Source: Psococerastis gibbosa
Lineage: Eukaryota; Arthropoda; Insecta; Psocodea; Psocidae
Assembly (NCBI GenBank): GCA_963971405.1
Contig: OZ020490.1
Span: 4,497,897 to 4,561,896 of the forward strand
Length of the DNA stretch: 64,000 nucleotides
Reading direction: 5' to 3'
Translations under genes and position numbers: made by a program
Part shown: positions 1 through 41,800 of the stretch, piece by piece
How the letters are laid out: each line of letters begins with the position of its first letter
How positions within the stretch are numbered: position 1 is the stretch's first letter
Notes under the pieces: model-generated
What the model was told of the DNA's origin: nothing
Database searches by the model: none
Seen by the model: the letters and a program-made list of their open reading frames with translations, nothing else

Positions 1-788
1 TAGGTAAGTGTTTCTTGTTTACGCGTGTCGCGTGGTATCATGTTTGTTTACAAATGGCGCTTGGTTAATTTTTAAAGGCCCAAATTGGTGTTTTTTTATT
101 TTCTTGCGAAAAATATCTTTGTGTTAAATTTAAATTTAGCTTCCTCCCCTAATACTCTGCCCTTCCCAATGCCCCAGTGACTGGTGAGTGCTTTCCGACC
201 CCGTTGGGCTGACTTAAATACAAAGTACAAATCCTCTATACAGACGCCGTGGGTAGCTTTTGTGAACAATTACCTTACCTAGCTACATACTGTATAAAGT
301 ATAACTTATGGTAAGTAAATTTGAGCAGTAGGCTACATATAGTATATGTATTTATTTATGTATGTAGCTATGCTATTGCATATTTCAGTGAAGGAAGGGT
401 AGCGCGTTTGCCTTGTACACTACAATAGCTAATTTATTTACTGTAAGTATTTAGGCATTCATTGCCATGGTTGCCGGTTTCCATTGGCTAGTATCTGTAC
501 TGTATGTGTGGGTGTGCATGCACTATGCACGTAGAGCTAAAGCCTAAACTAATGGATGGATTTTGATCAAACTTCACACATATATTAAGGGACACGAGCA
601 CAAAACAGAAGGATTGCAAATTTCACTGCCCCCAAAAATCAGGTTTTCAATTTTTTTTCCTAAAAAACGGCTCTAACGATTTTGATTAAATTTTAAGAGA
701 TGTTAGTCATAAAAATCAATAAAAATACCAAAGTCACTTCCTCCAGAAAATTTGTGTAATTCAGAAAATAATTTATTTCAGTGCAAGC

Positions 789-3233
789 ATGTCAGAAAAA
801 CGTGGAAAATTGTCCGGATATCAGAACAAGCTAAAACGACAGAAGAGAGAAGAAGAAAATATAAAGTTGAGTAAAGCTATGAAGGCCTTCACCAGCAACA
901 ATAATTCAACCGAAGAATCGCCTGTGATATTGAATTGTCACGCATCCGAGCCGATAAATGATGATACACCATCGGGACCATCCAGTTCTAACGAAGTCTC
1001 TGAATTAAGTTCTGACCCAGCCTTATGGGGATTTTCAATTACTTCGGCAATTCGTCAAATATTGGTAGAAAGGGGCCCGCAACAAGTACGACAATTCCAA
1101 TTTCCAGCCAACAGCTCAAAACGTAGATTTGTAGCATCAAATTATGAGATGGTTTTGCAAAATGGCGAAGTTGTACAAAGAAATTGGCTCATTTATTCTG
1201 TTTCAAACGACTCCGTGTTTTGTTTCTGTTGCAAACTTTTTGATCAGTCAGACGTCTCTCAATGGCCAAAAGCAGGCTTTTCCGATTGGCAGAATATTGG
1301 CAGAACCCTCAAGTCTCATGAAAAATCGAAATACCACAGGGATGCCTTTCGAAAATGGAAAGAATTTAACTCAAGATTGCGGATGAAAAGAACCATAGAC
1401 GATGAGTACCAACGACTTACTGAAATGGAGATTCAGCACTGGAGAGGAGTCATTAAAAGAATAATTTCTTTAATTAGGGCGTTGGCAACGCAATGTTTAG
1501 CTCTGCGAGGATCAAATGAACATTTGTTTGCCGAAAATAACGGAAACTTTCTTAAATTTATAGAATTTCTTGCAGAGTTTGATCCTGTTATGGAGGAACA
1601 CATTAGAAGAGTTCAAAGGGCATCAGACAAACCGTCTGTTACTTATTTAAGCAACCGTATACAAGATGAATTGATTCAATTAATGGGGCAAACTGTTTTA
1701 GAAAAAATTTTGGAATTAACAAATACAGCTAAGTATTTTTCAGTGATAGCAGATTGTACGCCTGATGTAAGCCATACTGAGCAACTGTCCTTAACAGTAA
1801 GAATTGTTACCCTCAACAAAAAAATTAAAAAGTATGAAATTCATGAATTTTTCGTTGGGTTTTTTGAGGCTACCAATTCGACTGGTGAAGCTTTGGCTGA
1901 GCTTATTCTGGCGCATTTAAAGAAATTGGGATTCACGTTGAAGTGGTTAAGAGGTCAGGGATACGACAATGGCGCCAACATGAAAGGAGTGAGAAAAGGT
2001 GTACAAAGTCGCATCCTTAAAAATTATCCTCGAGCTTTTTATGTGCCATGTGCAAATCATACTTTAAACCTTGTTGTAAATGATGCGGCTTCATGTACCT
2101 TGGAAACCACATCATTCTTTTCTACCGTACAAGAACTATATAACTTTTTATCCGCTTCTACAAAGCGTTGGGAGGCCTTAAAAAAACATGTCACTCAGTT
2201 GACTATCAAACCCTTGAGTGCTACTAGATGGTCTAGTAGAATCGATGCATTGAAACCACTGAGGTATCAACTAGGCGATGTGTATGACACATTGATAGAT
2301 ATCATGGAAGATGAAAGGACTGACGAAGAGGCTAAAGTAAGAGCTAGAGGGTTGGCTAGAAGCATTAATAATTACAAATTTATCTGTGGGTTAGTTCTGT
2401 GGTATAATATTTTATTTGAAGTGAATGTGGTTTCCAAGTTACTTCAATCAATTACAATAAATCTTTCGGACTGCGTAACACTTTTATCAGAGACAATTAA
2501 CAGGATTCAAGCATTTAGAGAAGCAGGGCTGGAGCATATAAAAATTACAGCCAACGAAATCGCAGACGAAATGGAATGCAATAAGGAATTCCCTAAAGAA
2601 ATGGAGGTAAGGGCCAGAAAAAAAAAGCGACAATTTGATGAAAAAGCAGAAGATGAACCTTTAAATGAAGAAAAAAAATTTGCTGTAAATTTTTTTTATT
2701 ATATTTTAGACAAAACCATTACTTCATTGTGTGAGCGATTCCAACTTCTACAAAATCATAGTAAGAATTTCCAATTTTTATATGATATCTATAAAATTAG
2801 AGATATTGATGACGAAACTCTTGAAACTTTTTGTAAAGAACTTGGAAATATTTTAACAGCTGACAATGAATCTGATATAAATGGAATTGATTTACAAGAT
2901 GAGTTGCGTGATGTGGCCCGTTTATTGCCTAAATCCATGAAGCCTTTAGACACTCTCAATTATTTAGTGGAAAACGAGTTGGAACCGTTGTACGCCAACC
3001 TAATTGTGGCCTTACGAATACTCCTCACCCTGCCCGTATCTGTTGCGAGTGGGGAGAGGAGCTTTTCAAAACTGAAAATAATTAAAAATTATTTAAGAAA
3101 TTCTATTAGTCAACTGAAACTGTCCAACTTAGCTGTAATATCGATTGAGTCTGGCTTGGCCGCCACTCTCGACTATACTGATTTGATTGACGAATTTGCC
3201 AAATTGAAAGTAAGGAAAGTAAAATTGAAGTAG
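789..3233 (+). CDS. hAT-superfamily transposase, ZMYM1/DUF4371-like
   Basis: Uninterrupted 814-residue frame. An N-terminal TTF/BED-like zinc finger lies at about residues 130-190 (a Cys-x-Cys-Cys group followed by two His near GRTLKSHEKSKYHRDAF). The RNase H-like hAT core follows: a first acidic motif around ADCTPDVSHTEQLS, then GYDNGANMKG and the family hallmark CANHTLNLVVNDA. The C-terminal hAT dimerisation region (VASGERSFSKLKIIKNYLR) ends the protein. The family cuts and pastes DNA in the nucleus; relatives have been domesticated as ZMYM proteins. The ATG is preceded by an acceptor-like ttatttcag at 773-781, and the window opens with a donor-like GTAAGT at 3-8, so a 5' non-coding exon may lie to the left. 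I could not identify convincing terminal inverted repeats, so mobile copy versus host gene is unresolved. Confidence 0.88.
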   Translation: MSEKRGKLSGYQNKLKRQKREEENIKLSKAMKAFTSNNNSTEESPVILNCHASEPINDDTPSGPSSSNEVSELSSDPALWGFSITSAIRQILVERGPQQVRQFQFPANSSKRRFVASNYEMVLQNGEVVQRNWLIYSVSNDSVFCFCCKLFDQSDVSQWPKAGFSDWQNIGRTLKSHEKSKYHRDAFRKWKEFNSRLRMKRTIDDEYQRLTEMEIQHWRGVIKRIISLIRALATQCLALRGSNEHLFAENNGNFLKFIEFLAEFDPVMEEHIRRVQRASDKPSVTYLSNRIQDELIQLMGQTVLEKILELTNTAKYFSVIADCTPDVSHTEQLSLTVRIVTLNKKIKKYEIHEFFVGFFEATNSTGEALAELILAHLKKLGFTLKWLRGQGYDNGANMKGVRKGVQSRILKNYPRAFYVPCANHTLNLVVNDAASCTLETTSFFSTVQELYNFLSASTKRWEALKKHVTQLTIKPLSATRWSSRIDALKPLRYQLGDVYDTLIDIMEDERTDEEAKVRARGLARSINNYKFICGLVLWYNILFEVNVVSKLLQSITINLSDCVTLLSETINRIQAFREAGLEHIKITANEIADEMECNKEFPKEMEVRARKKKRQFDEKAEDEPLNEEKKFAVNFFYYILDKTITSLCERFQLLQNHSKNFQFLYDIYKIRDIDDETLETFCKELGNILTADNESDINGIDLQDELRDVARLLPKSMKPLDTLNYLVENELEPLYANLIVALRILLTLPVSVASGERSFSKLKIIKNYLRNSISQLKLSNLAVISIESGLAATLDYTDLIDEFAKLKVRKVKLK

Positions 3234-11862: not shown

Positions 11863-14800
11863 CTGAAAAATAGAAAAAGAAAGTCTATGAAGGTCTCAGT
11901 TGGAAAATTTTCCCCGCAGAGAAGAAAGAAAGTACCCTCAACAAATGTAAGAGTGCTGCGGCCAAAATCACTCTTCATAATCTGTTAACGGATCACATAA
12001 CGAGAAAACGTGCTGAGGCTAGGGGTTGGGAAACTGGCCCTGAAGGCGAAGGAACTCATTGAAATGTCAACGGCATAAGGATAAAAGTAAAGTAAATTCG
12101 TGTCGGGGTGGTACTACCCGTGGTACAGGAGTTTTCAGGTTGCATCAACAGCCTCCTGTTTAACCTATCGACAGTCAGGGAAGACTGCCGGGACCGCCGG
12201 CTTTACATGCCCTCCGAAACATGGTAGTCAGAAGATAAATAATTGTACCACTAGAAAATTTTGGCATTCGGGTGGGACTCGAACCAGTCACCTTCTGGAT
12301 GATAGTCCGAGTCGTTACCTCTACGCCATTCTGACTACAATAGGGATGCAATAAGGATGCACATGCAATAAGGATGCACAAGGCAACGGGAAACCACTAC
12401 ATTGCAATTCCCTAGTAAGATCATCATCATAATTGTATAGTATTGCATTGCATTGTACTGTGTGTTTCAATATAATTATTCATTCATTCATTGCCATGAT
12501 AATCGCCAATCATCGATAAAAGAGGCATGCGAAGAAGATAATATTTATTTGTAGGTTGTTTTTTATAAACTTCACGAGTTTCCGGAGAGTATCTGTGTAA
12601 CTTATTATTTGTTTTCGTTCTTGTTAGTTTAATGTGATATATTGCTGTGCCAGCAGTTAGGCCCTACAGCTGTTGCCACACCTTAAGGAAGTAGTTTTTG
12701 TTGTTTCTAACGCCTGCTTTCAGCATTTCTGCTTTAAGCAACCCTGTCAGCCTGGCGGGTGGAGTGAGTCTGTTTGTTAACTTGAGGCACCCTAAGGGCA
12801 GACTCTTTCACCTCGGGGAGAAGGGGAGTTGGCTAACAGGGTGGACCTCCTGATTATAGTGGATTCCGAACCACTTGGGGAACATGGTAAAGTCACACGA
12901 TTAAATCGGAGGTGACCAGGACTCGACTTATTCTGCCTAAGCGCGTTATCATGTCCCACCATGTTCCCCTGCCAACGCTGTGCACACTACCAAGTTTGCC
13001 GCAGTTTGAAACATGCTCTGCTCTAATGGAATCAACATGGTAAGGCCGTTGGCACCCTTAAGGAAGGTTAATAGCTGTTGCCGCCTATTGATAGTAATGA
13101 AAGAGGCGACGCTCTAACAATTACCTTAGAACAGCGAATTTGGCAGTTCCTCTGACGCAAAATAGTGCGAAGCAGCAGCGCAGGACAGCCGTGGGAAACT
13201 TTGGTGAAAAATCCTTCACCGCATGACCTACCAAGAGCTGCTTTTGTCACCCGTTTTCGCTACACTACAGGCCACGACTACCTGCAACCTGCAGGCTCAC
13301 CGCCTAGGCCTGGCTGTTTCAGACCAATGCCCACTCTGCCTCGGCGAACGCATGGATGCTGCCCACCTTCTAACGTGTCAATCGATTCAGAGCCCAAACA
13401 ATGACATTACATCACTGTACTAGCAGCCCGGATAAAGTAAAGCACAATAATTATTACCTTAGTTGAGCGAGGATGAATAATTTCGGCGTATTCAGTCTTT
13501 TCAGGTTCAGGCTGTGCCCGGGGGGCGGCCTCAGCTGCTGCGCTGCGTACAATGTCCAATTCAGCATAAACCACCCCGTCAGCATTGGTCCTGCCGTGAG
13601 CGTCCAATGCGGCTAACTCGTTGTCCTGCAACAGATTCGCCAAATTTTAAAGACTTTGTAGCGAAAGATATAAAGACGGCAAGAAGGGCTAAGATCAGGA
13701 ATGAGGTGATTAGAAGCAGCTAGGCTAGCAAGATGGCTATCCACAGCTCAGCCAATTAACGATGCCGCAGTTGTGACCAAGCGTAAGCTGAAGGTTCTCG
13801 CTATGAGTTCAATATACTTTAAATCAGCTATTAATATGACCAGAGGACCAAGGTCAAGTGCGTATATTTTAGTCAGCCCTACCTGTTTAATTGTTAATTA
13901 GTTTTTCATTTTCCAATATTTTCTTTTTTTATGTTTGCAACCCTACAACTTGGTAACATTTCCTTTGACCTCCCTAACCATTTTTTTTTTTTTTTTTTTT
14001 TTTTTTTGGCATTGTGGGTTCACATACAGCCATGGTGGGTAGGTGGGGTTAAAATTCAACGTGGACTTCCCTTAGAAAGTCATATATAGCCTGGTAGGAG
14101 TCACTTTTAGAGATCATGTGGGCATAATTAAAAGGGAGGACTGTCATTAAGGGGAAGATGCGGTCTAGTAATTTGTTTCTAGCTATGGTGAATTCAGGGC
14201 ATTCCAATATAACATGCTGCATTGTGCCTTCACTTTCCAGGCAATGGCTACAGAGAGGAGAGTATGAGCCCCGTAGGGTATGATAGACATATGCCTCAGA
14301 GAGTCCATGGTTTGTCCTCAGACGTGAGATGGTAGATAAATACATGCGGTGAGTTGGGCCAGACACATTAGCAGACCATTCGTTTTTAAGCGGTCGAGGT
14401 AAAATAGACCTATAGAAGGAGCCAGAAGTATTGGAATTGAAGTCATTTACCCAGAACTGGAAATAGTGTTGTTTTATGGTCTTGTAAAATTCCTCTTTCG
14501 GGAGCAAAATAGCACTGTACTCGCCAGTATTTGCTCCTTCTTTAGCCAGTGCATCTACCTGTTCATTCCCCTTAAGTCCGACGTGGGCCTTCACCCACAC
14601 AAAACGAACATTGATGCCTCTTGATCGTAAATCAGCAAGAAGCACAAGAATTTTTACGATGAATGGGTTTTTTGCTCTATTTTCCATACTTTCGAGAAGC
14701 TGCAAGCAGCTCATAGAGTCTGAGAAAATAGCGACATTCCTACAGTCTGAAATTATCATGGTTTCTTTGCAATGTACCAGTGCTCTATATATCGCTTCTA

Positions 14801-17800
14801 CCTCAGCAGCGAAGCTGCTACAATGAGGTGGAAGCTTAAAGGCTTTACTGTAATTTGTCGTGGCCACATAAAAGGCGCAGCCTGTGGCGGAAAGGGTGTG
14901 GGGGTGAGTATTTTGTCCTTTTGAGCCATCTGTGTAAACATGCAGGTAATTGTTATAATTAGTTTGGGACCATTCGGTAAATGTTTTACAGTATTCCCTA
15001 TCAGATATGTTATCTTGTCGCCGAAAATAGGTTACCGACACCTCCATTGCATACTCATCATACGGCAAGGAGTATTGGGGAAGATTTCTGTGGGTCCACA
15101 GCAACTTCCAATCGACATGTTCCATTGTAAAGCTGTCAACCAACATGGGGCTGTTTCGCCCGGTGGGAGAGGTTAGTACAAAACCGGTTAATTCTGCCAA
15201 TTCGGGCAGCAAGCTGCTTTGTCGCGCTCTTTGTTTCAGAAGGAACTTGTCAGACATAATAGCTCTGCGGTATCGGAGGGGTAGTTCTCCGGCTTCAGAC
15301 AGTAGGGCTACAATAGGGGTTGATTGTAACAGACCGAGACATGCACGGAGGCACCGGTTATGCAACCGGTCAACTTTGACTAAATGTACTTCACTCGCCT
15401 GGCCATAGAAAAAACCAGCGTAATCAATGATTGCCCGTATAGTGAGCCTGTAATACATTAGACATGTTGAGGGGTGAGCGCCCCAACGACAACTAGTTAT
15501 CATTTTAAGTATATTGTAATATTTTTCGCTTTTTGAAAGAACTAAGTCAATATGCTTCTTCCACGTCAGCGTCTTATCTAAGGTGAGACCCAAGAACTTT
15601 GCATCACTTTTAACGGAAAAAGTCAAGCCAGATATCGATACACTGTCTCCTATGTTTTGGTTTCTCTTCCGGGTGAAGGGGACAACAAATGATTTCTCCA
15701 GGGACAGCGCAAGACCCATGGTTATGAGCCAAATTTTGAGATCCGCTACAAACTGACTAAGGGCTGTCACACATTCATCTAGGCTGTTAGTTTCTACATA
15801 CGCGCACACGTCGTCGGCGTATTCTATAATCCGGACGTTTCCGGGGGCAAGTTCGCTTAAATTTGCTACATAGATGGCGTACAGGCTAGGGCTTAAAATT
15901 CCTCCCTGGGCCAAACCCTTCCACATGGGTCTTGGACCAAACATTTGTTGACCTACTCGCACAGAGACTTGTCGATAAAGGAGTGGTACTAGTCTACTAA
16001 TAAATGGTTCAGGGAAACCCACGGTACGTAATCGCTGGATCAGCATAGTCCAAGGGACCTCATCATAGGCACCCTTAAAATCAAGAAATAATGCTAACGT
16101 GATTTTACGCCGTTCTAGGGTACGGTGAATACCGCACACTAGTTTGCCCATGTTATCATAAACAGACCGACCTGAGCGGAAGCCACATTGGGAATCAGGT
16201 AGGATGTTATTGTGTTCTATCCACCATTGCATTCGGTTTTTTATTAGGCGCTCAAAGGTCTTGAGAACGCAGGATGTTAATGAGATGGGTCTGTAAGAGG
16301 ACGCAATATTGCTTTTTTTCCCAGGTTTTAAGATGGGTATTACCGTGACCCTAGACCATTCAACTGGATAGTCAGCATTATTCCAAAATGTGTTAAAAAG
16401 TTTTAGGAGATGTAGCTTAAAAATGAGTGGCAGGTGAAATAGAATAGGGTATGTGATGAGGTCGGGGCCGGGGGCAGACCCCCCTTTATTCCGTAGAACA
16501 CTATTGAACTCGGCTTGAGTAAAGGGTCTACTCAATGAATCATAGCCTATATTTGGGGGTGGCCCACCCGACAGTAAGAACTCTGTTGAATAAGAAACGG
16601 ATGGAGAGGCATAATTATCTAAAAAATCCTCAACCCAGTCTCCAGGTACAACAACGGGGTTTGGGTCATTCATATTTTTATTTATGCTTTTTAATCTATT
16701 CCAAATATCACGGACAGGCGTGGACCTATTAAGCTTCGCACAGTAATTTTTCCAAGACAGAGCCTTTGCGTCCTTAACAATGCGACGGAACTCATCATTT
16801 CGTTTGTGGTATAGATTATAGTATTCCTGATTGGGTACAAGTCTATATTTTTTGAAGGCCTGTTTCCGTAACAGAAACGCCCGTTCACAACAAGAGTTCC
16901 ACCACACTGTACTTTTTGGATTCGGAGAAAAGGGTTTTGAGATAGGGAAAGTCGCATCGCAAGAGTCAGTGATTTTTTGTAGAAATGCCTGATAAGAGTC
17001 AGAGGCTTGCACCAGATTATTCTCCAACAGGTGTTGCTGAAAGCTTTGCCAGTTAGCAGCATCTGTTTTCCATCGGCGGGATGGGTAGATGGTGTAGGGT
17101 TCATATTGAATGTAATTTGATGTAAATTTAATAAGGAAATGATCTGACCCGAGACTCTCATCTAGCACTTGCCAGGAAAATAATGGAGCAAGTTCTGCAG
17201 AAAGTAATGTCAGGTCAATGGCCGAAAACGAAGTGGAATTTCGACGATTAACTAATGTTGGGCTACCGTTGTTCAGAAAGGCTAAATTATTTTTATCTAG
17301 GGCATGAACAAAGTTAACTCCTTTACTTGTGGTCACAGTTGAACCAAAACACGCATGATGTAAATTGTAATCCCCAGCATGAATGACTGGTCCTGCGGGT
17401 ACTGAGGAGAAGAATTTCTCCCACTCTTGTCTGCTTACATTATTCCTATCACAATTATATATACAAACAAGATTTAGCGTTGTACTAGTACCAGGCAGCG
17501 ATATTTGAGCACCCACCACTTGACTGTTGGCAGGTTTATGGATAGAATGTGTTATGTTCATGTATGGTATGGTTTTGCGAATAATCAGGGCCGATCCTCC
17601 AAAGCCGTCTGCCCTGTCATCCCGCAGGATGTCATATTGTCTATAAGAGATATTACGTTTTGGGCTAAGCCAAGTCTCACTGATAAACGCTATGTCAATG
17701 TGCTGGTCCACCAAAACTTGCTCAACTTCATCCTTTCTGTTCCATAGGGAACGTGCATTAAATTGCAGGCAAGTCAGTGGGAATTTAGTCATAAGAATTA

Positions 17801-20800
17801 GTTAAAAATACCAAAAATACCTCCTGACTGTTACCAGGCACACGTACACATACGTGCATAGGCCTATATGCACACAAACAGACACCCATATATGCACATG
17901 CACAGGCACATGCATACACATGCATGCCGCATACATACAAGGATATGCAAAGGGCATAAATGTATATATGTAGTAATTATACGCAGTTAACGTAATTTAT
18001 TTAAAATAGCAGTACGTATGGTACAAACAGATTCTAATTACCAAACCTGAGAGAGCCATTGCTGATACTATCAGCGACGGCTGCACGTATTGTCTCATCA
18101 TTTAATTCACAAGCCATATCCAATTTTTCTATAAAATTAATGACTTTCATGGCGAATTCGCAAATTTTTTCTTTGTCAGTCCCAGACTGGCTGAGAGTAT
18201 TCTCAGCGCCTCTAGTAATCCCCTCCCTTTCAGCGTGATTAGCTGAGTTGCTTAAATTTATGTAGCCACCAGGGACCTGGCGTTCTTTATAGTTATAAAA
18301 AACCTCTTGGGGAATCTTCATGCCAGGTGAAATTGGGGAGGTAGGCTTCCTTTTCTTTGGCCTAATATCCCTATTAGGCCTAGGCGACGGTTCAGGTTGG
18401 CCCTGAGGTCTCATTCTAGCTTGGGCTGAGGGAGTCCTTAAATAGCTGGGGTTAGCTCTTGTCAGGGGCGGAAACTGAGTGATATTGGCACTGTTAGTGT
18501 TTGACGAAAAATTTACTACTTTTTGCGCGTAAGACTGTGCCCCAATGGCCTGTTTGGCTTCCCAATAACTGACGTTTGATTGCGCCATCAATTCTTTAAT
18601 TTTTTTTTCACTATCAAACTTCTTGCAAAGTGTCTTATCATTTGGTTTGTGAGCTTGTTTACAATTAATACAATGGGGTGGCTCAGAGTCACATTTACCC
18701 TTATCATGATCTTCATTCAAAGCCCCCGAACACCGCTCACAGATTTGCTTCCCTTTGCAATTGCTTATTATATGCCCAAAACGGAAACAGCCCCTACATT
18801 GGACGGTATTCTGGATGAAGGGTTGCACTTTGCACACCACGTACATAATACGAACTTTGTCAGGTAGGTGTTGTCCCCTTATAGTAAACATAACTGAGGT
18901 TGTTGGGACTCGGCTAACTGTCCCATCCTTCTGTACTTCACGTCGAGTCATTCTATCTAACTGTAGTATTTCGGGTTTACCATACATTCCTATACATTCC
19001 ATATTTTCCATAATTTCCTCTTTTGTGAGGGACGGATCTACCCCTCTAATAACTCCTTTCCTTCGAGTTAAATGTATAGGGATGTATGCACGAAATTTGC
19101 AAGCAATTAATTTAGTACTGTTAATTAAATTGTTAGCATTGGTTAAGTTAACCAGGGTAACTATAACCCTATTCCTTCCGGTTTTCTGAATACCAATCAC
19201 CCCAGGTGCAACTGGAAGGTCTAAATTATTAAGAAGCTTACCTACTGTCATGGGGTGAAGGCGCCCCACTCCACGGGATTCACTGTCCCAGCTCTCAACA
19301 ACTCCCTAACCATTTCCTTTGACATTTCCCCACTGTCGGCAATACTTAGCATATTGTTAGAAACTATCTTATTATTTCTATTATTATTACGATTGTATTA
19401 TTGTTGGTTAGAAGAGAGTTCGGGGTTGAGGAGAAAAGCGAGTACTGCCCTTTTGGTTTATTTATTTACATTCTATTTCGAACTTAATTTTATATCCCAC
19501 TTTACAATGGAATATGGAGGTCAGGAACAGTCCAGTAGGTAGAGAAATAGACTATGAAGCGGAAGGCCGAAGTTCGAGAGTCGACAAAAAAAGAAACATT
19601 TTCCACCTGGTGTTGAGCTCGTTTTAAGAACATAACTAAATAGATATTGACTTTTTTTGTTTTATTACTAAGCCAACCTAGCAGAGTTAGGGCTATAAAG
19701 CCCTCTCTTACACTCAACTAGGAAGAATCGGGACCGCCTGCTTTACGTGACCTCCGAAGCATGGTCAGAAAATGTAGCAAGTGTGGGACTAGAACCAACC
19801 ACCTTTCGGGTGGAAGTCGGAGTCTGTACCACTACTCTACATGTCCTGACGTTTTCAGTTCCTTAAAATATACAGTACCGTAAATAAATAAATAAATAAA
19901 TAATTAATTCTTGTGACTACATCTCAAATAGAGCAGTGGTCAAGAGAGAGAATCCTCAATTAGTCCTCAGGCCCTCATTGGGATGTTCTATTATGGAACA
20001 TGTGAATACCCCCATTGTAATATACAAAATTAGAAAATATGGAAAAAACTGGGCTTGGCGGGATTCGAACCCACGATCTACGCCTAACCGGGGCGTCGTC
20101 TTAACCGCTGGACTAATACTACAATGTATTGAATAACCCATTGCAATATAATTATAGCAAAGTCGGTCTTATAATTCCTACCTTAGCTTCAGCAACAGCC
20201 TTAAGGTCTTCAATGTCCATCACCTTATCTTTGGGCCTCTTCAAAAGATCCAAAAATCCGAACTTGGGCTTACTGGAACGGTTCTGCGTCAGCTTCGAAA
20301 CGGAAGACTTGTCAGTGGAGCCGTGGTCCGCGCTCTCTGTATCGCTCCTGAAATCGAACAGAACTTTTAGAATTTGACTGAGGTGTATGATCAATTCTAG
20401 GGGCAGTAAATTTTATTATATGGCAATCATTAATATACGACCGCAATGATTTTTTGAGCGGGTATACTTTTATTTGTACATATTCGGACTGTATTCTTGA
20501 CCAAATACTCAACAGGGAAGACATAGTCCGGTTCATAAAAGCGCAAGGCATAACATGGCTGGGGCACGTCGTAAGAATATCAGACGACCACATGCCGAAA
20601 AATATGTACAATGCAAGCATTACAGGAAGACGACTGGCCGGACGTGCTTGAAAACGCTGGAAGGATGAGTTGGAAACTGACCTTCGCGAGTTGGGAATCC
20701 GTAGATGGTGGAGCTTTGCACAAAAGCGAGATGACTGGAGAAGTGTTGTCGAGCAGGCCAAAGGCCACTAAGGGCTGTAGGGCCAAAAGAAGAAGAAGAA

Positions 20801-23800
20801 GAGGATATACTTTCAATTGTGTCATCTCTTCTGATTACTGCGGTTGTAATGGGTTAACGAGCCCCAAATTCACCCAGGGGAAACATAACAGGTAATAGAT
20901 AATTTTTTTAAATCTTAAAATAATGATATTAGGCTACTTTTTTCTAATATTTTTTCATAACAAGCAAAAAAACCAAACGCCCTGTATTGTTGCGTTATAA
21001 CTAGCTTCGTTAACCACTATAAAAAGTACAATAAAAGCATACATAAACCCTACAGTATATAAACGTATCCCAAGGATATTTAGGTCAACATCGAAATCTT
21101 CATTACATGTACTAGTCGTAGCCTGCAGGCTCCTTCTAGTCTAAGGATTGTACTATGATATCTGAGACCGGTCGTCTAAACGGGCACGGTGGCAGACAGA
21201 CACCAGGTCCTCCAAGAAAGCGGTGGCTAGACGGCGTGGAAGTGGAGCGAGGTTGGCAGCGGAGGGTGCAAGACAAGGACGGATGGAAGGCGCTTGTGGA
21301 AGAGGTCAAGACTCAACAAGGGTGGTAGCGCCGATGGCTAAGTTAGAGAAAGAAAGTCATGGAAAAATGGAAGAATTGATCCCGAGTCTCAGCCATGCCG
21401 GGGTGGTATGCTTACCCCTTCACCAAATCCGTCTACAGTGGTGCCCACTTTTAGGATTGATTTTCTGCAACACCATCTACACAGGTCGACAACCGAATGG
21501 GCCCTCTACTAGCTGGAGGATGGTACTCCAATCCATCCACTGGTCTACCCTAGAGGAGCACTGCGCGCACCCAACGAACATCTAGCACGTGAGGCACGGT
21601 GTCAAATGGCTGAACAGTCAAGGACGGGCGTTGGCTGAAGTAAGAAGTAGTACTTCTTACAATAGGATAAGAAAGGGGGGGGGCGTCACGCGAACCTGGG
21701 TAGGTGGGGGCTGGCAGAGGACCAGATCAGCGAATGTTGGCAACTACAAGACGACAACCCGAGGCTTGAAGAAGCGAATATTTTCGAAGCCAATGACTAG
21801 GGCTAGGCCATCCAGGCCGCAGAATTTGACAGCAACGTGTCCCGGGCCCGGACATGTTAAGTACAATAATGACCAAGTTAACCAAAATATCTTCGGAAAA
21901 AAGGTTTGGAGACAGCACACTTGGTAATAACCACAGCCAAGGTTACAACAACAGAGCTCACATAAATACTTCACCCGGACATCACAAACACAGGCTGACT
22001 TTGACACATTATGACGCATTTATTGACACTTACAATCTTGTCATCTGAACATCATATAAAGATAACGGCCGACTTTTTTTCTTATCTACAGTGTGCATCT
22101 GCTTGTCAATCTTGGGGATCAGCAATGAGGAAGGCCTCTGCTTCTCTAGACGTGAATCCTTCACCTCGCAACCCTCATCATCCAACTGCTTCCAAGCTTT
22201 CAAAACAACTGGCTCGTTCTCTTCATCAAACTCCCAAGACTTCCCTCTCGGTGCCTCCTCATTTCTTTTCGGACCCCAAACACCCACAGCTGGTCTTGCA
22301 ATAATCAAATCTTCATTAGCTTCTTCACTAGACGATGCAGAAGATGAAGAATTTGCGCCATCTTCGATTGTGTCACTTTTAGGTAGAAAATATGGGGCAA
22401 ACGTATCCTTTTTCTGCGGTTTTGGCTCAACGTAATCATCGGCCATTGTAAAGTCGTAGAAGCCTTTTCTATTATTCTTTTTATTGGCTTTCTTGATATT
22501 TTCATCGTAGAACCCCTTACTGTTCCTCTTTGCACCACTATCTTTGTTTCCATTTCGCAAAAATGAAAGTATGCCACCCTTATTTCCTGGTTCTTTCTTA
22601 CCACTTCCTATGTTTTCAAGCTCTTCACTTGTAGAAACGGACTCCTCTGAATCACTTTGATCTACTCCATCAACCCCATCTACTCCTATTTCCCCCTTTA
22701 ACTCGTCTAAAGATACCCTTTTATCTTGCGATTCTTTAGATCCAAAAACCAACCTAAGCAATGATTCTTTTGAGGGCTTTCCATTGGAATTCCTTGCTGT
22801 AGATTTCTCAATCTGATCTTCAGAGTCTTGCAAGTCTCTATTAGGCAACACTCCTATGCTTTCGTTTTTCTTGACCGAAGCCCCATTCTCTTTAGACCCG
22901 AAGATTTGCCTAAGTTGGCCAATAGTAGTCTGCTTATTGCTCAGAATTTTTTTGTCCTGCTCTGAAAGCTCTTTTATTTTCCTACTCCCGGTTACTCTTT
23001 CTCTTTCATCGCTCGAAGAGGATGAACTTTCTTCACTTCGAAAACCAAACGCTGAAGTAGGATGGTTCTTTCTTTTTTTGCCTCTAATGGCAGACTTGTC
23101 CTGTCCCCTGTTGGTCGAATTTATTTCTGATACATCTGATAGTCTTGAACCTTCATTCTGTTTTACAATCTTCATGGACACCTCAAATTTACTCGGTTTC
23201 AAATCATTAATTTGAGTATGTCCAACAGATTTGATGCCTTCATCGTCAGATATTGATGCAACAGAGTCAATCCGGTTCTGTGACTTAAACAAACTCATTA
23301 TTCCCTTTTTTGAGCTTTTGTGACTCTTTTCTTCCTTTTCACGTTTGCCTTCTAGAGGGCTATTTTCCTTACCCTCTTTCAATTTAGCATTATCTTTAGT
23401 TTTAGGAACCAAGTTTGATAGAAAGCTTTTCTTAGGCGTTTCGTTTGTTTCATTCACTCTTGTTTTTTCATTGTCCAGGGAACTTAATGAAGGCACTGAT
23501 CGTTTTTTGTCCCCTTTGGAACTATGTTTTACTTTCTTATCTTTCAAGTCGCCACCAGAACCAAAGATAGATGAATGACTTTTCTTATGCGTTTCGTTTG
23601 TTTCATCAACCCTTATTTCTTCATTATCCAGGGAACTTAATGAAGCCGCTGATGGTTTTTTGTCTTGTTTGGTCCCTTTTTTCGCTTTCTTCCCTTTTAA
23701 GTCGCGACCAGAACCAAATATGGATAAAAGACTTTTCTTAGAAGTTTCGTTCGTCGCATCAACCCTAATTTCTTCATCGTCCAGGGAACTTAATGAAGCC

Positions 23801-26800
23801 ACTGATGGTTTTTTGTCCCCTTTAGGCCTATCTTTTACTTTCTTATCTTTCAAGTGGCCACCAGAAACAAAGATAGATGAAATACTTTTCTTTTGCGTTT
23901 CGTTTGTTTGATCAACCATTATTTCTTCATTATCCAGGGAACTTAATGAAGCCGCTGATGGTTTTTCATCTTCTTTGGTCCCTTCTTTCGCTTTCTTCCC
24001 TTTTAAGTCACGACCAGAGCCAAATATGGATAAAAGACTTTTCTTAGAAGTTTCGTTCGTCGCATTAACCCTAATTTCTTCATCGTCCAGGGAACTTAAT
24101 GAAGCAACTGATGGTTTTTTGTCCCCTTTGGTGCCTTCTTTTGTTTTTTTCCCTTTCAAGTCAGAACCAGAACCAAAGATAGATAAAATACTTCTCTTAG
24201 GCGTTTCGTTCGCCTCATTAACCGTTATGACCCCATCGTCCAAGGAACTTAATGAAGGCACTGATGGTCTTTTATTATTTTTCGGCCCTTGTTTCACCTT
24301 TTTCCCCCCTAAGTCACGACCAGATCCAAATATTGATAAAATACTGGTCTTAGGCTTGCCTTCTGGGTTTTCCGGGGCAGTTTCAGTTTCCAAATCTTCA
24401 CTTTTTCTGTATGTTCCTTTGACCCCAAACAAAACCTTTAAAGGCTTTTTACGTCCCTCTCTATCGTTACGAGCCTCTTTCTTGACCTTTTCATCATCAG
24501 AATCTTCATCAGAAGTATCTTCTTGGAAACTCCTCTCCTGCCTTAGCCTCCTTTTGGGAAAAATTTCTTTTTTATCGCTCTCGTCACTACTGCTTCCAAT
24601 ATTGGATTTAGATACCACATAAGTCTGTGCTGACTTCTTTTTAGGCTTCACTACTGATTTTCCAACCTTCTTCTTTTTCTTCTTTTCTTTGTTCAGGGAA
24701 TCTTCACTATTCGACCTAAATATCTCGCCAACAATATCTCTCATTTTATCATGCTCACTATCAGCTGATTGACTATTAACGTTATCATGGTGCAATTCTG
24801 CTGCAGATAAGACTAGCACCGGCTCATCTTTTGATTTAAATCCTAGAATTTCTTTCACAATGTCACCAATAGATTTGGACTTTTCGGGAATATCTTCTTG
24901 TAAAATTTTCTCAGAGCCGCTTTGCTCTGCTACATTAGCCTCTTCACAACTATTAGTTTCGACCTTTTCCGCCACCAAATCATTTACCTCCGTGTCTACA
25001 ACATCAGGAACTTTCCTGTAGTAATCACCATCTTCACCTTTGTTCCCTTTTGGAGACTTGCTCTTCACTGGTGTAAATACTGATAGAAAAGACGCCAAGT
25101 ATGGTCTTTCTATTATTTCTTCTTCTTCATCATCATTTTCTTCTTTCCTATTTCGAATATTGATATTATCTACAACTATGACGGGTTCACCACTATCTAA
25201 TCGAACAGCTTCAATACCTTTGTTTTCATTATTTTCTGTCTTGTCGGTTTCAAAGAGCTTTGAATTCTTTTTATTTTTTCCCTTTGGCTTCCATAATGAT
25301 GGAAACGAAAACCTTCTCTTCATTTTTTTAGCTTGCCTCACCTCTGCGATATCACCCTCGCCATCGCTCTTGGGAAATTGTTCTCCTTTCAACGACTGAT
25401 CGTCACTCGATGACGACGACATACTTTTAGAACGTTTCTTACTTTTTCCTGGAAGTTCTTCACTCCTGTCTTCAATGACGAATGTCATAGGACTAAGTTC
25501 TGCATCAACATAAATGGTTTTCTTTGGTCCCTTTGCAAGCTCACTATCGCTTAAGCCTACGCCTGTTTCATCCTCAGCGTTAACAGACATCTTCTTATCC
25601 TTAAGCTGGTCAGAACTTTTAGACTTTAACAGAGGAAAAATGAAGCCAGACTTCTTTTCATCGGTTACTTTCTCACCTTTTGTCGTCCCTTTCTTAATTT
25701 TACCAGCATTTTCAACTTCATTGTCATGTTTTGGGCTCATTGAAAGAACATCGTCACCAACTGTAAAACTGTCTTTGACTCGTTTGTTTGCATTCGGCTC
25801 CGATAATGATCTTTCAAGAGTAACCCTTTTTCTCTCTCGCTTACTTCCAAACAAGTTCCCCAATAATGTCTTACGAGGCTTTCTATCTGCTCTATCGTTT
25901 TTATTGACTTTGGGCTTATCATTCTTTGCATTTGTTTCAGAGTCTGAACTTTCAGAGTCAGCATCCGAACCATCCTTATTTTTAGCAAATTCAACATCCA
26001 ACTTCGAAACCCTCTTCGTCTTCCTACCAGATGCAAACATACTACCAAACAAACTTCTCTTTTTCCCCGCTGACCCCTCTGACCAGCCACGCTTGAAGTT
26101 ACCTTTTGCCTCTCTACTATCACTAACTGCATCACTAATATTAATATCACTCAGCCCCTGATTTGACAGTATTGTTTCAACCTTTTTTACTTCTTGAGGA
26201 GACGACAAAGGAACAGTCACCAAAGATTTTTTCAATTCCATAGGTGACGGAACCGGAGGAGGTGGCCCCAAGTCACTTGGTATCCACGGCAAATCCCGAA
26301 CGTCTTTAATTTCTTTTACAGGCGAGGGCATAACTAAATCCCCAGCTTCTCTATGTTCTTTCAACCAATCCGAAACCTTGACATCTTTGGAAACCTTTGG
26401 TATCCCAGCCAACGATAACTCATTAGAAGTTGCAGTCGTTTTACCAGCATCTACAGTGTCTTCCTCGGAATCTTTAACAGTAGCAGCCACTGTATCTAAA
26501 GTACAATCTACCGACGACTCAATAAGTGACTCGTAATTTGTCGTCCCACTGGAGCGTATAAAGCTTTTAAACGAATCGCTGTCCAATGTGGACACTTTAG
26601 GAGGAGGTGGTGGGGGAGCTAGAGGAGCCTTTCTCAGTATTCCTTTTGGAACATCCGACACATCTTGCTTCTTTCTCTCCTCAGCTTCTTCCAACGTCAC
26701 ATACTCTTTTCTCCCATCTGCATTAACTATCTGAACATAATCAACAGATGTTGAAGCTTGAATTGGCCTAGTGGTGGTTTCTTTCGAAGGCCCAGCAAAT

Positions 26801-29800
26801 GCAGCAACGGTCCGTTTGGCCTGTAATTGCGCTGCTTCTTCTTGCGAGACATATTTCTTCTTTCCGTCCTCATCTAAGACCAGCTTATAGTCAACATATG
26901 TCAAAGATTTTGGTGCTTTCGCGTCATTTTTCTTCTTGCGAGTTCTGTGTTATTGATGGTTAGTCATGCGAAAAAAATGAAAATGATATGTTAAACAATA
27001 AAATTAATATAAAAGGAAAACTATGGTTTATTTCATTGCCTAATCTATAAATGAAAACGTTACTTACGATTCTGTTGTTTGATGAGGGGCTGCACCACCT
27101 ATAACGAAATAAAAACATAAAGTAAGACGAATTCATAATTGTCATTCATAAGTCTAGGGTTGCCAGGTGTCTGGTTGTTCACCGGACAGTCCGGTTTTTC
27201 GTACCTCTGTCCGGTGAAAAAATAAATGTTTGACCGGACAATGCTTTGTCCGGTTTTTTCGCTCGAGTGTGCCAAAAAATTTTTTCTTAATATTTAAAAT
27301 AAATTTAATAATTACATTTACAGAAATTAAATATGTCTACTTCCTCATCGAAAATAGGCCTTTTCCGGCCGCGCTTTTGGGGGTGTTAATATCAATTTGA
27401 ACTTCAAGCTACTTTAGTTCATTTCCACTTTTCTTACTCTTTCCATACATATATTTAGTTTTACTCGTTCAGGGTCAGGTGAGTGTATAAGCAATCCGTG
27501 TTTCGGCGGAAAACAGGTTCAAAGGGTACTTTTCAATTTATATGCATAGAGTAAAAATATTCCACAGCCTGCAATTTTCAACCGAAATGAATTTTTAATG
27601 TCTTAGTAGCTAAGCATTCAATAATAAGGTATAATAAATAAATAAAATAAAAAATATATAATAAATAATAAAATAGGCTAATAAAAAATAATAAATAAAT
27701 AAAATAAAAAATAAAAATAATAAATAAGGTTTCAAACGAGTATAAATACATAGTTTCAAATTTACCCCTTCACCCCTTAAACACGAGTGGAACACAAAAT
27801 TAGTAAACTGAGACGCATTTCCAGCAATCCCATTTGAATTGCATGGGCGGGTTTGAACCAATTTTTTGGGCAGATGTGGAAGGCCTATCTTAATTCAAAT
27901 TATACCCACGTCTTCGTCAAATGAACCACCACCCCATTCAAAAACCTATCGTAAGCGGGCAAAATTTATAAAAGCTGGACCCCACCAAAAAAAAAAAATT
28001 CTGGCTACGCCACTGCTTTGGGGGTGTGAAACGTCAGGGGGTGCGCACGATTTTCAACAAAAATCGGTCTCTTTCGGACGCGCTATTATCTATTCAAAAA
28101 ATTCAAACTACTTAAGAGCTTTTCCACATTTATTTCTCTTTCCAGCCATATATTATTTGTGTAGCCTAAGATTTAGTAATTTAGGCGTTGTCACGTTAAA
28201 CTACCCACTTACAGACAACCAATTTTTATTTAATTTAAAAAATGAGCTCTGCGACAGAAATTAATTAAAAAAAAAAAACACATGTGTCAAGAGGTGGACT
28301 ACAACAGACGCTCAAGTGAATAGCAAAAGGCAAAGAAACATAGGAGGTAAGTTAGGTTAGGTTTTTCTATTTCTATGTTTGGCGGAGGTATCCTCACGCT
28401 GGGCTATTTCCCTTTACTAACAACACAGTGAATGCCCCTATTAAATTATTAGACATTAGATTTTAAATTATAGGCCTGTCTCTAAGTTATTCTTGATTTT
28501 TTTTATGACGACGTCGAAAACCTACTTGGTAAAATGACTAATTTAAGTATTGTATAGTAATTACCCCTACTATAAAACATACACCAACCTATTTTGGGGT
28601 GATCTAGGGGTGACCAAGGTCAACGGTATGCTTCCTCTTAAAAATCATAACCCCAAAGAAGCTCCCATAGGAGCAGAGGCCTTCTTAATTACCCATTAAT
28701 TAACACTGTCATTAGATACAATAAATCAAGTGCTTTACCCATTAATTATCACTGTCATTAGATACAATAAATCAAGTGCTTTACCCATTAATTATCACTG
28801 TCATTAGATACAATAAATCAAGTGCTTTACCCATTAATTATCACTGTCATTAGATACAATAAATCAAGTGCTTTACCCATTAATTATCACTGTCATTAGA
28901 TACAATAAATCAAGTGCTAACGTACACACTGGCTAACTCAAGACTTGCTTAAGAGTGGCATACTGTACGTGATATCAATGATAGGTCTGTTACATTGTGT
29001 ATTAATGGTTAAAAAAAACGTCTGTTTTGTCCATTGTGGCATACCGGTCTATATAGACTGATATTAGGTCAATGTGCCAGTTCGCCAAATTTACTATTCA
29101 ATCAATCAATCAATATATTCAAAATTAAGAATACAATACAAAATATACATATTAGAAAATGAACCCTATAGGCCATGTGGCCCGTGATGGGTTCTGTCTT
29201 AGTTGCTAGGTTAGTATTATAAGATGTTAATATTAATTATAGAATAATAATTAAATAATAAAACTAGGTATGCGGTACATTATACATTATTTGGCAAATT
29301 GGCATTCTCTTCGTTAAGCTATTCTCCCGGATATATTATGTTTATAAACTGTGGATTACTATGCAGAAATTGCTTAATTGTTTTACGGCACTTCTTATCT
29401 GGCATTAATGTTTTAAGATCAGTTGGTAGTGCGTTAAAAGCTAAAATTAAGTCAAGACATGTAAAGTAGTGGTACAGACTCCGACTTTCACCCGAAAGGT
29501 TGTTGGTTCGAGTCCCACACTTGCTGCATTTTCCGGCCATGCTTCGGAGGGCATTGTAAAGCAGGCGGTCCTGGGTCTTCCTAGTTGAGTGTAAGATAGG
29601 GCTTTGTAGCCCGCTCCGCTAGGTTGTCTTAGTAATAGAACAAAAAGTCATTGGAACTGGGGGTGCTACCTTAATTCCTAACAATAAACCTGGTAAAGAA
29701 TTCAGAATTCAGTTATACAGTAAGACGGCATCCCCAATCTAATGAATCCATAGCGGTCGGTCAGTATTCCTCGCGAAAACACTTCTAAGCGTGGTGTGGG

Positions 29801-38800: not shown

Positions 38801-41800
38801 ACGTGAATTTTATTGTCTCTACCTCTAAATTCAATAAAAGGCAGTATTGATAATATCACGCCTAGCGGGTGGCAAAAAACTTCAAGTTTAGGATAGGATT
38901 GTTGCAGTTTTCCCGAAACTATTGACATTTTCAGCTGGTTTCAATCTTTTAATTGGCGTTCTACGTGGTGGGGTTGAAAATTCAATTTATTTCCATAACC
39001 AAAAAGGAAATTCAAGAAAAAGCAGGTTAGAGCAGGATTTGAACTCAGGATTTTCCTCTACCAGCAGAAACACGTCAGTATTTGCTTCTGACGTACAGTT
39101 ACTCATTAATTCCACAAGTGCTCACACCAACAGGCTTCCTCGAATTGAATTACAGAATTATAACAAGATCACGTCTTGTATAGCCAATAAATACGGCAGT
39201 AGCAGAAACTTACGATCTGTAAATTACCATCGGTTAGTCTCTCACATAGTACAATGACCATCCCAAACATGACGTTTTTAACAACCTCAGGCAATAAGGC
39301 ATTCACCACTTCAACGAATTTTACAAAAACTTGACTACAATACAAGCGAAGCATCAGGGAATCTTTGTGCTGTTTACTTTTAATCAGTCAATACATAAGA
39401 TGCTTCGCCTATATTATAATTAAATTCTTCACAGCTAACTTATAACGTTAAAGTGGCTTCCGCTAGCTATCCCTTTTCGGCAGACATAAAGACCACTTCA
39501 ACGAATTTTATACAAAAACTCAACTACAATATAAGCGAAGCATCCGGGAATCACTGTGCTGTTTACTTTTAATCAGTCAATACTTAAGATGCTTCCCCTA
39601 TATTACAATTAAATTGTTCACAGCTAACTTATAAAGTTAAAGTGGTTTCCACTAGCTATGCCTTTTCGGCGCTAATCGGATATAACTAATCGTCAAAAAA
39701 AAAACACTTTCGAGTCCATCGTCACAGGCTCCACAACACAAAAATATCCCTTTTTAAACATACTCTCATGGTAAATGTTCTAAGTTTTAGACCGGGGTGT
39801 TAATTTTGTCAGTACTGGATTTCTTTTTGTCATTGCCATTGATGTATTCCGAGCTGGCGTATACGCCATCCTTGCCTTGCACGGACGGCGGACGTTTGTC
39901 GTCTGCCTCGCCACCTATCGCCGTCTCGGACGACGTTTTGATTTCGTTGGTACCGGCTGAAACAGACGAGAACAGGTCCCTTATTTTTCCTCTCACTCTT
40001 TTCCTTTAGACAACCCGAGGGAAATTAAATTGCAAGTTTGGTTTGGTTTTTCTAAAAGGTTAAGGCGCCCATTCCACCGACCGGCTAGGACTATTTACAA
40101 AACGGTGACGTGGTAGCAGACTATCAAGACTTAGGTGGCGTTTCCACCGACCTCGCATTGCAGAATGCAAATGACATTGACGGAAATTAGAATTTTTTTT
40201 TATAGAAATCTGTTAAAATGTTTGTATTTAACATATCCCATGACGCCATTTTTTAATTTTTGTTTGCTTGTTTGTGATTTTACTGTATGATCATTGATCA
40301 ATTTTAACTATGGCATAGAAAAAAATAAACATTTCTGTCAATTCTGCAATGCGAGGTCGGTGGAAACCCAGCCTAAGTCTTGAATGTCTGCCAGCACGTC
40401 ACTGTTTTTGTAAATAGCCCTAGCCGGTCGGTGGAATGGGCGCCTAATCGCGTACAAACAATTTAATGAATGTATCCGATTAATCTCTTCAATCGTCTCA
40501 CTAAGGCGTGTATTCCACTGGTCAGTATTCCGTCATTTGTGTTTTAAAAAAAAGTTGCGATTTTGTTCTAAGGAGACTATTATGTATATACTTAACTTAT
40601 CTATTATAAATTAAGTTATAATATGGTAGCAGACTTTTTTTAATCACAAATGACAGAATATTGACCAGTGGAATACACGCCTAAGTAGTCTAATAGGTAC
40701 TTGTGGCGAGTTACGACTCGTCTCCGATCGCATGGATTGTTGAGACTCGAACAAGTACAAGCACGCTACCACCTTGCCAACGAAGTTGTTTAAAAAGTAG
40801 GTTAGTGTTGCGTATTAGATTGCCCAGAATAGCAGTAGATGTAAATATGTATATATATACAGCAGATGGCCCAGAATTCGGAACTCACTCAACGGCATAA
40901 GGATGCAGAAGGCAGCGCAAAACCACTGTATAACAATTTTGGTGTTTTACAAAAAGGTTAATCGCATACAAACAATTTAATAAATGTATCCGATTGACCT
41001 CTTTAGTCGCCTCTGTAGGTTAGTACCCGTGTTGAGTTACGACACGTCTCCGATCGCATGGCTTGTAGAGATTCGCACAAGTACAACCACGCTATCACCT
41101 TGCCATCGAAGTCGATTCCCCCTACTAAAGTTATCATAACTACAACTGCCATGATGATCGCCAATCTTCGATAGAAGAGGCATTACAAAATGAAGAAGAA
41201 GCCACCGGCGTAGAATGTGGTAGCCCAGTGCTTTTGATGGGTAATCTTGACTTGCAGAAACCTTTTTGCGACCAGTCTTTAACACTCTGCACCCAATATC
41301 CTCCTATATTCGATGGCCTCAATGGCCGTGTACATGATAGCTAATTGTGTAATTCTGTGAGGCAGATGTTGAGTGTCCCGCTATAGTAGTAATACCCGAA
41401 CCACAGCGAAGAAAAAATTGGAAGCACTTAATTGAGCATACCTAAACTATCGAAAGTGGAATTGGAGAAAAAATGGACGAATCCTCTGTGATGGTTAATT
41501 GCAAGAGTGGGCCGAAAGGCCTGAAATTCGTCCATAAGGAAAAAAGACAAGGTTCTTTCTTAGGAATAATAGTAATCCTCTAATAAGAACCGGTACGAGT
41601 GAACCCGTACATGCTTTCCTATTTTATTTATCAATTAGTACATAAATAAATACTCGCTTTTTTGTTCTATTACTAAACCAACCTAGCGGAGTTAGGGCTA
41701 TAAAGCCCTTTCTTAAACTAAACCGCCTGCTTTACATACCCTGGATTTGTTTAACCCAGGGGGCCACCTGTTTTTTCAATGGCTGGTCATAGGAGGCGTA

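Follow-up and report, generated by a model that had tools for sequence, protein, structure and literature searches.

The DNA analysed here is a stretch of 64,000 nucleotides (nt) from the psocodean insect Psococerastis gibbosa (assembly GCA_963971405.1, contig OZ020490.1, positions 4,497,897 to 4,561,896 of the forward strand), referred to below as the window; positions are those within it. Its minus strand carries a gene for Fasciclin-3 (Fas3), a textbook adhesion molecule. The part of this gene that encodes the cytoplasmic tail contains a single open exon of 4,911 nt (22034–26944), which, judged by its frame and borders, is very probably a real coding exon of Fas3, used either as a cassette or as a terminal exon.

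The exons of the Fas3 gene were placed by their splice borders and open frame, and all lie on the minus strand. Seven of them, running from 60494 to 52589, encode the ectodomain and the transmembrane segment: e2 (60295–60494; start of the mature ectodomain and first immunoglobulin domain, Ig1), e3 (59144–59264; Ig1), e4 (57980–58114; Ig2), e5 (55529–55723; Ig2), e6 (54568–54752; Ig3), e7 (53804–53948; end of Ig3) and e8 (52589–52699; transmembrane segment). Exons e2 and e3 were assigned by AG/GT borders, open frame and the fasciclin-3 match of the joined protein, e4 to e7 by the joined model and the same match, together with Pfam domains for e4 to e6, and e8 by the joined model and conserved alignment columns. 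About 25 kb separate e8 from a microexon of 31 nt (27068–27098, phase 1 to phase 2), which was placed by the joined model and aligns with the same stretch of other Fas3 tails. The giant exon comes next, followed by the exon encoding the SDTESAD motif (20182–20347; joined model and alignment) and by a tail exon with VVYAELDI and TEYAEII (13458–13625), provided that its donor AAG/GTAATA is used (slashes mark exon borders). A putative alternative terminal exon at 39787–39956 has an acceptor, continues the frame from e8 and encodes a short tail that includes YASSEYING and ends in KINTPV before a stop codon; it is likely to be an alternative terminal exon of Fas3. The search by splice borders and frame located neither the exon for the signal peptide nor a possible final 3′ exon.

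The joined short form, modelled as 485 residues, matched 132 proteins at E ≤1e-3 among 7,992 scored. The best match had an E-value of 5.6e-101 with 99% coverage and 39% identity, and the named proteins among the 120 matches listed of the 132 were mostly fasciclin-3. In the joined model, Pfam domains C2-set_2 (E 1.6e-9), Ig_3 and I-set scored above their cut-offs, and the first Ig domain gave only a weak V-set match (E 0.039). Beyond the Ig-type matches, the modelled protein outside the giant exon had one weak match to Syndecan and no ankyrin domain in Pfam. The tail motifs CFAGG, SDTESAD, VVYAELD and TEYAEI are all present in the alignment columns of the window protein, and the VYAEL and TEYA columns are invariant in an alignment of 18 Fas3 proteins with it; the overall identity to these 18 proteins is low (31–44%). 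On its sequence the gene is Fas3 by every feature tested, in agreement with the original prediction, which had described a Fas3-like cytoplasmic tail.

The prediction had further placed one open exon of 4,911 nt at 26944–22034, between the microexon and the SDTESAD exon, and this was borne out by the frame and the splice borders. The frame from stop to stop has 1,639 codons, of which 1,637 belong to the exon. When the exon was shuffled 200 times with its composition kept and read in three frames each time, no stop-free run exceeded 146 codons, so a frame of this length is far beyond chance. The acceptor border reads ATAACACAG/AACT at 26944 and the donor border AAGATT/GTAAGT at 22034. The split-codon phase is equal at both ends (phase 2-2), as had been claimed: the frame is kept at the junctions microexon–giant exon (TC/A) and giant exon–SDTESAD exon (TT/G), and skipping the exon keeps it too. 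The claim of an acceptor and a perfect donor held in part. The donor is perfect on the intron side, but its exon side ends in TT, and the acceptor is present but weak, with 9 pyrimidines among 20 positions, a count that is joint lowest among the 12 exons compared. This weak acceptor suggests that inclusion may be regulated and not constitutive. With moderate confidence, we read the exon as a frame-neutral coding cassette that follows the microexon and precedes the SDTESAD exon.

The sequence just past the donor fits another use of the exon and tells against the cassette. The first full codon there is TAA (22032–22030), and 10 nt past the exon end stands AATAAA (22024–22019), a candidate alternative poly(A) signal followed by a GU-rich stretch; about 0.055 such hexamers are expected per 40 nt of this strand. 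Because of this TAA and AATAAA, the exon might serve as an alternative terminal exon, entered from the microexon, with the donor at 22034 left unused, translation ending at the TAA and cleavage following the AATAAA. The product would be a giant tail without SDTESAD and the tyrosine motifs. Drosophila Fas3 picks exon 6 or exon 6a from one donor, according to one report (PMC7644725), and 39956–39787 resembles a terminal tail exon in the gene studied here. However, the donor reads a perfect GTAAGT on its intron side and its phase keeps the frame with SDTESAD, and AATAAA is common in AT-rich DNA, with six such hexamers listed within the giant exon itself. The one related protein, described next, also continues from its insert into SDTES and the tyrosine motifs. 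We consider a terminal exon unlikely, although it is the strongest of the rival accounts, and prefer the cassette.

This relative is a predicted Fas3 protein (P0119, PYX00_002218) of the chicken louse Menopon gallinae, a chewing louse of the order Psocodea, with 655 residues and a start inside Ig3. The span from CF to SDTES measures 414 residues in the Menopon protein. It was measurable in 116 Fas3 proteins, and the remaining 115 have 11–72 residues. The insert itself has 412 residues, is charged and Ser-rich, and occupies the same protein position as the giant exon. Common to both is an opening block, SLTYxDYKL...DGKKxYVS (Menopon form SLTYKDYKLIETNDGKKVYVSPEDEKK; BLASTP E 1e-5). Aligned without gaps to the Menopon insert, the copy at exon residues 13–39 (26827–26907, minus strand) scored 79, where 3,000 shuffles gave no more than 42. 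Residues 63–89 (26677–26757, minus strand) form a second copy by internal duplication; its score of 64 exceeds all of 1,000 shuffles, which reached 40 at the most. When the three block copies were made into a profile, none of the other 119 Fas3 proteins tested (of the 131 remaining matches) matched it. The Menopon insert differs from the giant exon in having one block copy instead of two and a quarter of the length. Past the block both inserts are Lys/Ser/Glu-rich, and no significant alignment of the two was found there. A tree of 16 rows joins the window to Menopon with support of 87/87 (highest identity 49%), at a fork that is not among the 3 starred of the 13 inner branches; parts of the tree are not resolved. 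The source insect is probably no close relative of Menopon. The simplest inference is that the giant exon is older than the split between the lineages of the window and Menopon, and that most of it would have turned over since.

The same block bears on whether the frame belongs to Fas3 at all. At third codon positions the GC fraction is 0.35 for the giant exon but 0.62 for the ectodomain exons. This discrepancy counts against the cassette and in favour of a separate gene or transcript, nested in the Fas3 intron under its own promoter; the distance of about 25 kb from e8 to the microexon also speaks for one. Yet the first Met of the frame is residue 205, and a separate nested gene is made unlikely by the conserved block lying upstream of it. 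In Menopon the block stands between the transmembrane segment and SDTES of one predicted protein, and in the window the exon has at each end a splice site that keeps the frame and matches the phase of the Fas3 tail. A nested gene is for us the least credible account, and very improbable.

Searches for further relatives were limited in the lengths that they covered. With the exon alone, no homologue was found at E 1e-3 among 7,981 candidates of about 901 residues and more; these were picked by words from the first 500 residues, low-complexity proteins competed for the places, and the length filter shut out the 655-residue Menopon protein. When the transmembrane region and the start of the exon served as query, none was found at E ≤10 among 1,259 word-sharing candidates of 673–2,140 residues, a range that omits Menopon and has longer proteins and unannotated genomes outside its scope. 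Against the same query region Menopon scored 107 bits, and all 120 Fas3 proteins compared scored E ≤0.0039 at that database size. Among the 120 Fas3 proteins listed, the three longest have 670, 655 and 637 residues, the extra length of the first and third being mostly N-terminal. The open-access literature, with few subscription journals, was searched on Fas3 isoforms and tails, giant exons and Psocodea, and no such Fas3 form was described in it. The assertion that no description is known holds for the open literature in this sense, yet a shorter relative of the exon was already public in a predicted protein, that of Menopon.

The composition foreseen for the insert was found: its 1,637 residues are rich in Lys (14.4%) and Ser (13.0%), it contains polyproline runs (PPP occurs 6 times, overlaps counted, where shuffles give 0.1), and it includes a tandem array. 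The duplicated opening block and an excess of a short hydrophobic core had not been foreseen. No match was obtained at E 1 either in Pfam or among solved structures. The charge/hydropathy value of 0.385 lies on the disordered side of the boundary (0.420), and the encoded chain looks mostly disordered. The array (23406–24353, minus strand) comprises six units of 153 nt (51 residues) with a higher order of 306 nt and alternating similarity between units, and every unit contains some form of SILSIFGSG. Differences between units peak at third codon positions (214, against 143 and 131 at the others), and the ratio of nonsynonymous to synonymous change (pN/pS), pooled over the six units, is 0.47 in frame but 0.92 and 0.64 when the frame is shifted, with the reservation that unit pairs are not independent. 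Two kinds of phosphorylation-site patterns are in excess, the CK2-type sites (74 against 49.5) and [RK][RK]x[ST] (19 against 10.3).

The short core was defined as [ILMVF]xx[ILMVFY][FW] (ΦxxΦ[F/W]) after the array and ordinary Fas3 tails had been inspected. Ordinary tails often carry a stretch like LSRLFKRNKDK after SDTESAD. Among 116 proteins, those without DTES being left out, the core occurs once within 50 residues after SDTESA in 75 and is absent from 41; it is present in 69% of the 84 distinct tails and in 2.9% of shuffles. The giant exon contains 15 cores, against a mean of 2.18 and a maximum of 9 in 2,000 shuffles and 3 in the reversed exon. Ten of the 15 lie outside the array, where shuffles gave a mean of 2.0 and a maximum of 8, and the reversed exon 3. 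A basic residue follows within 4 positions in 13 of the 15 cores, and the flanks of the cores carry a mean charge of +4.1 over 20 residues; random places average +0.3, and none of 5,000 draws was as high as the cores. That a core present in most insect Fas3 tails recurs so often in the giant exon points to it as a functional unit.

These properties also bear on a more sober account, in which the exon is real but neutral, a disordered linker that grew by repeats and stayed open by chance without gaining a function. The tandem array with its alternating similarity, the low-complexity composition, the want of significant alignment to Menopon past the first block and the lack of relatives in the length ranges searched would all be expected of such a linker. 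The in-frame constraint among the array units would not, nor would the excess of cores outside the array, the basic flanks around them or the preservation of the duplicated block. Neutral growth is in our view improbable, and we keep to the cassette reading.

Several results nevertheless weigh against this cassette or against the core as its working part. The last 19 residues of the two psocodean inserts do not match (ungapped score −10, with 40% of random pairs as good), and the protein of Menopon was predicted automatically and bears a name starting with UNVERIFIED_CONTAM, its insert being known at the protein level. The Menopon insert has 2 cores where 0.64 are expected (fraction 0.13), which is not a significant enrichment. 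Selection against internal GTRAGT donors was considered and rejected: none occurs in the giant exon, against 3.7 expected from composition and 2.3 under synonymous shuffling (fraction 0.09), which is not significant, and shorter donor patterns are at chance level. The p-value of the core enrichment is optimistic because the core was chosen post hoc. The idea that the exon copies the whole 15-column motif of ordinary tails also failed. The profile was built from 41 distinct windows in 77 proteins, after 42 others lacking DTES or the anchor pattern had been set aside. It gave 5 windows at threshold 2, against 7.9 in shuffled and 18 in reversed sequence. A profile derived from the array was only weakly enriched in the rest of the exon, with fractions of 0.008 to 0.196 depending on the threshold. 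The SDTESAD exon of the window itself carries FLDLL, which is not an exact core, and the broad pattern [RK]xx[ST] shows no excess (52 against 54.6).

Other features of the window were noted in passing. Within Fas3, the 5′ half of the transmembrane exon together with its acceptor is present in two more copies upstream, starting at 53021 and 52860 with a period of 161 nt (52645–53084, minus strand), and both copies read in frame and then meet a stop. Used as alternative terminal exons, they could produce a Fas3 that has a hydrophobic C terminus but no cytoplasmic tail; this C terminus is perhaps a putative signal of the glycosylphosphatidylinositol type. The intron upstream of the microexon has a tandem repeat of 46 nt in five copies, 99% alike (28689–28918). 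A tRNA-like sequence at 20058–20115 (minus strand), also in a Fas3 intron, scored 32.5 bits against an Rfam cut-off of 29 and was not called by ARAGORN; it is perhaps a short interspersed element derived from a tRNA. A retrotransposon without long terminal repeats lies in a Fas3 intron, with long frames at 14052–17801 and 18037–19305 (minus strand). Its frame of 1,250 codons encodes an endonuclease, a reverse transcriptase and an RNase H, and the upstream frame of 423 codons had no Pfam match and looks zinc-knuckle-like by eye. On the plus strand, a frame of 836 codons (723–3230) encodes a hAT-type transposase (DUF4371, Dimer_Tnp_hAT).

A working model of what the cassette might do can be proposed. 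Its inclusion would insert 1,637 mostly disordered residues in the cytoplasmic tail and keep the ordinary tail motifs, for a predicted protein of about 2,120 modelled residues and near 230 kDa prior to glycosylation. Many copies of the core on one chain would have a higher avidity for the partner of the single copy, which may be an inner-leaflet lipid or a cortical adaptor; to our knowledge, the partners of the Fas3 tail are poorly defined. By its spacing alone, the core, with hydrophobic residues at positions 1, 4 and 5 and basic residues on either side, would be compatible with a short amphipathic helix docking on a membrane or in a groove. Adhesion sites could thereby be clustered and anchored at contacts by the receptor itself, and the CK2-type and basophilic serine sites could tune the clustering, with phosphorylation as the switch. 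We infer inclusion, regulation, the binding partner and the scaffold function from the features described above. If the exon is included, the chances that it forms a multivalent scaffold seem to us about even; the coding cassette and the scaffold mechanism taken together are rather doubtful. As a tentative proposal, the exon would be a psocodean scaffold of the giant-ankyrin kind built into an adhesion receptor, in which a regulated cassette multiplies the core to at least 15 copies and makes Fas3 a self-scaffolding organiser of junctions or synapses.

A possible parallel is the MARCKS effector domain, which is basic with spaced aromatic residues and serines. The giant exon holds a stretch of similar character, here among many dispersed motifs on a transmembrane receptor.

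Among Fas3 proteins, the Drosophila isoforms A, B/F, C, D/E and G included, the Ig ectodomain, the transmembrane segment with RWCFAGG, SDTESAD, VVYAELD and TEYAEI are alike, and the tail predicted from the window differs from these by gaining 1,637 residues through one exon. By one account, Drosophila Fas3 has seven splice forms encoding five proteins, with a common ectodomain and differing low-complexity intracellular parts, and these intracellular variants are reported to behave differently (PMC12173457). Because the Drosophila isoforms differ inside the cell, a variable tail is a known property of Fas3, but the present scale is not. The choice between Drosophila exons 6 and 6a, which presumably encode the tail, is sensitive to the minor spliceosome (PMC7644725). 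A role for U12-type donors in the window was rejected: three exact matches to GTATCCTT/ATATCCTT were found against 5.5 expected, none of them at a modelled Fas3 exon border, and branch-point-like sites were near chance (28 against 25).

The closest likeness is to the giant ankyrins (vertebrate AnkG and AnkB, Drosophila Ank2), in which a single very long exon of biased composition likewise makes a membrane-linked protein giant. These ankyrin exons are described as fast-evolving and biased in composition (PMC5135030), features that the Fas3 exon shares; the six residue types compared with that passage sum to 53.9% in the Fas3 giant exon. Unlike giant ankyrins, the window protein has no ankyrin repeats, ZU5 or death domain, its giant exon being without a Pfam match at E 1 and the rest having Ig-type matches and the weak Syndecan match, and the exon lies in an adhesion receptor and not in an adaptor. 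The likeness, as seen in exon length and composition, is analogous and not homologous. If the proposal is true, Fas3 of this insect would be a further case, beside the ankyrins, of a giant disordered exon giving rise to a giant protein that links membrane and cortex.

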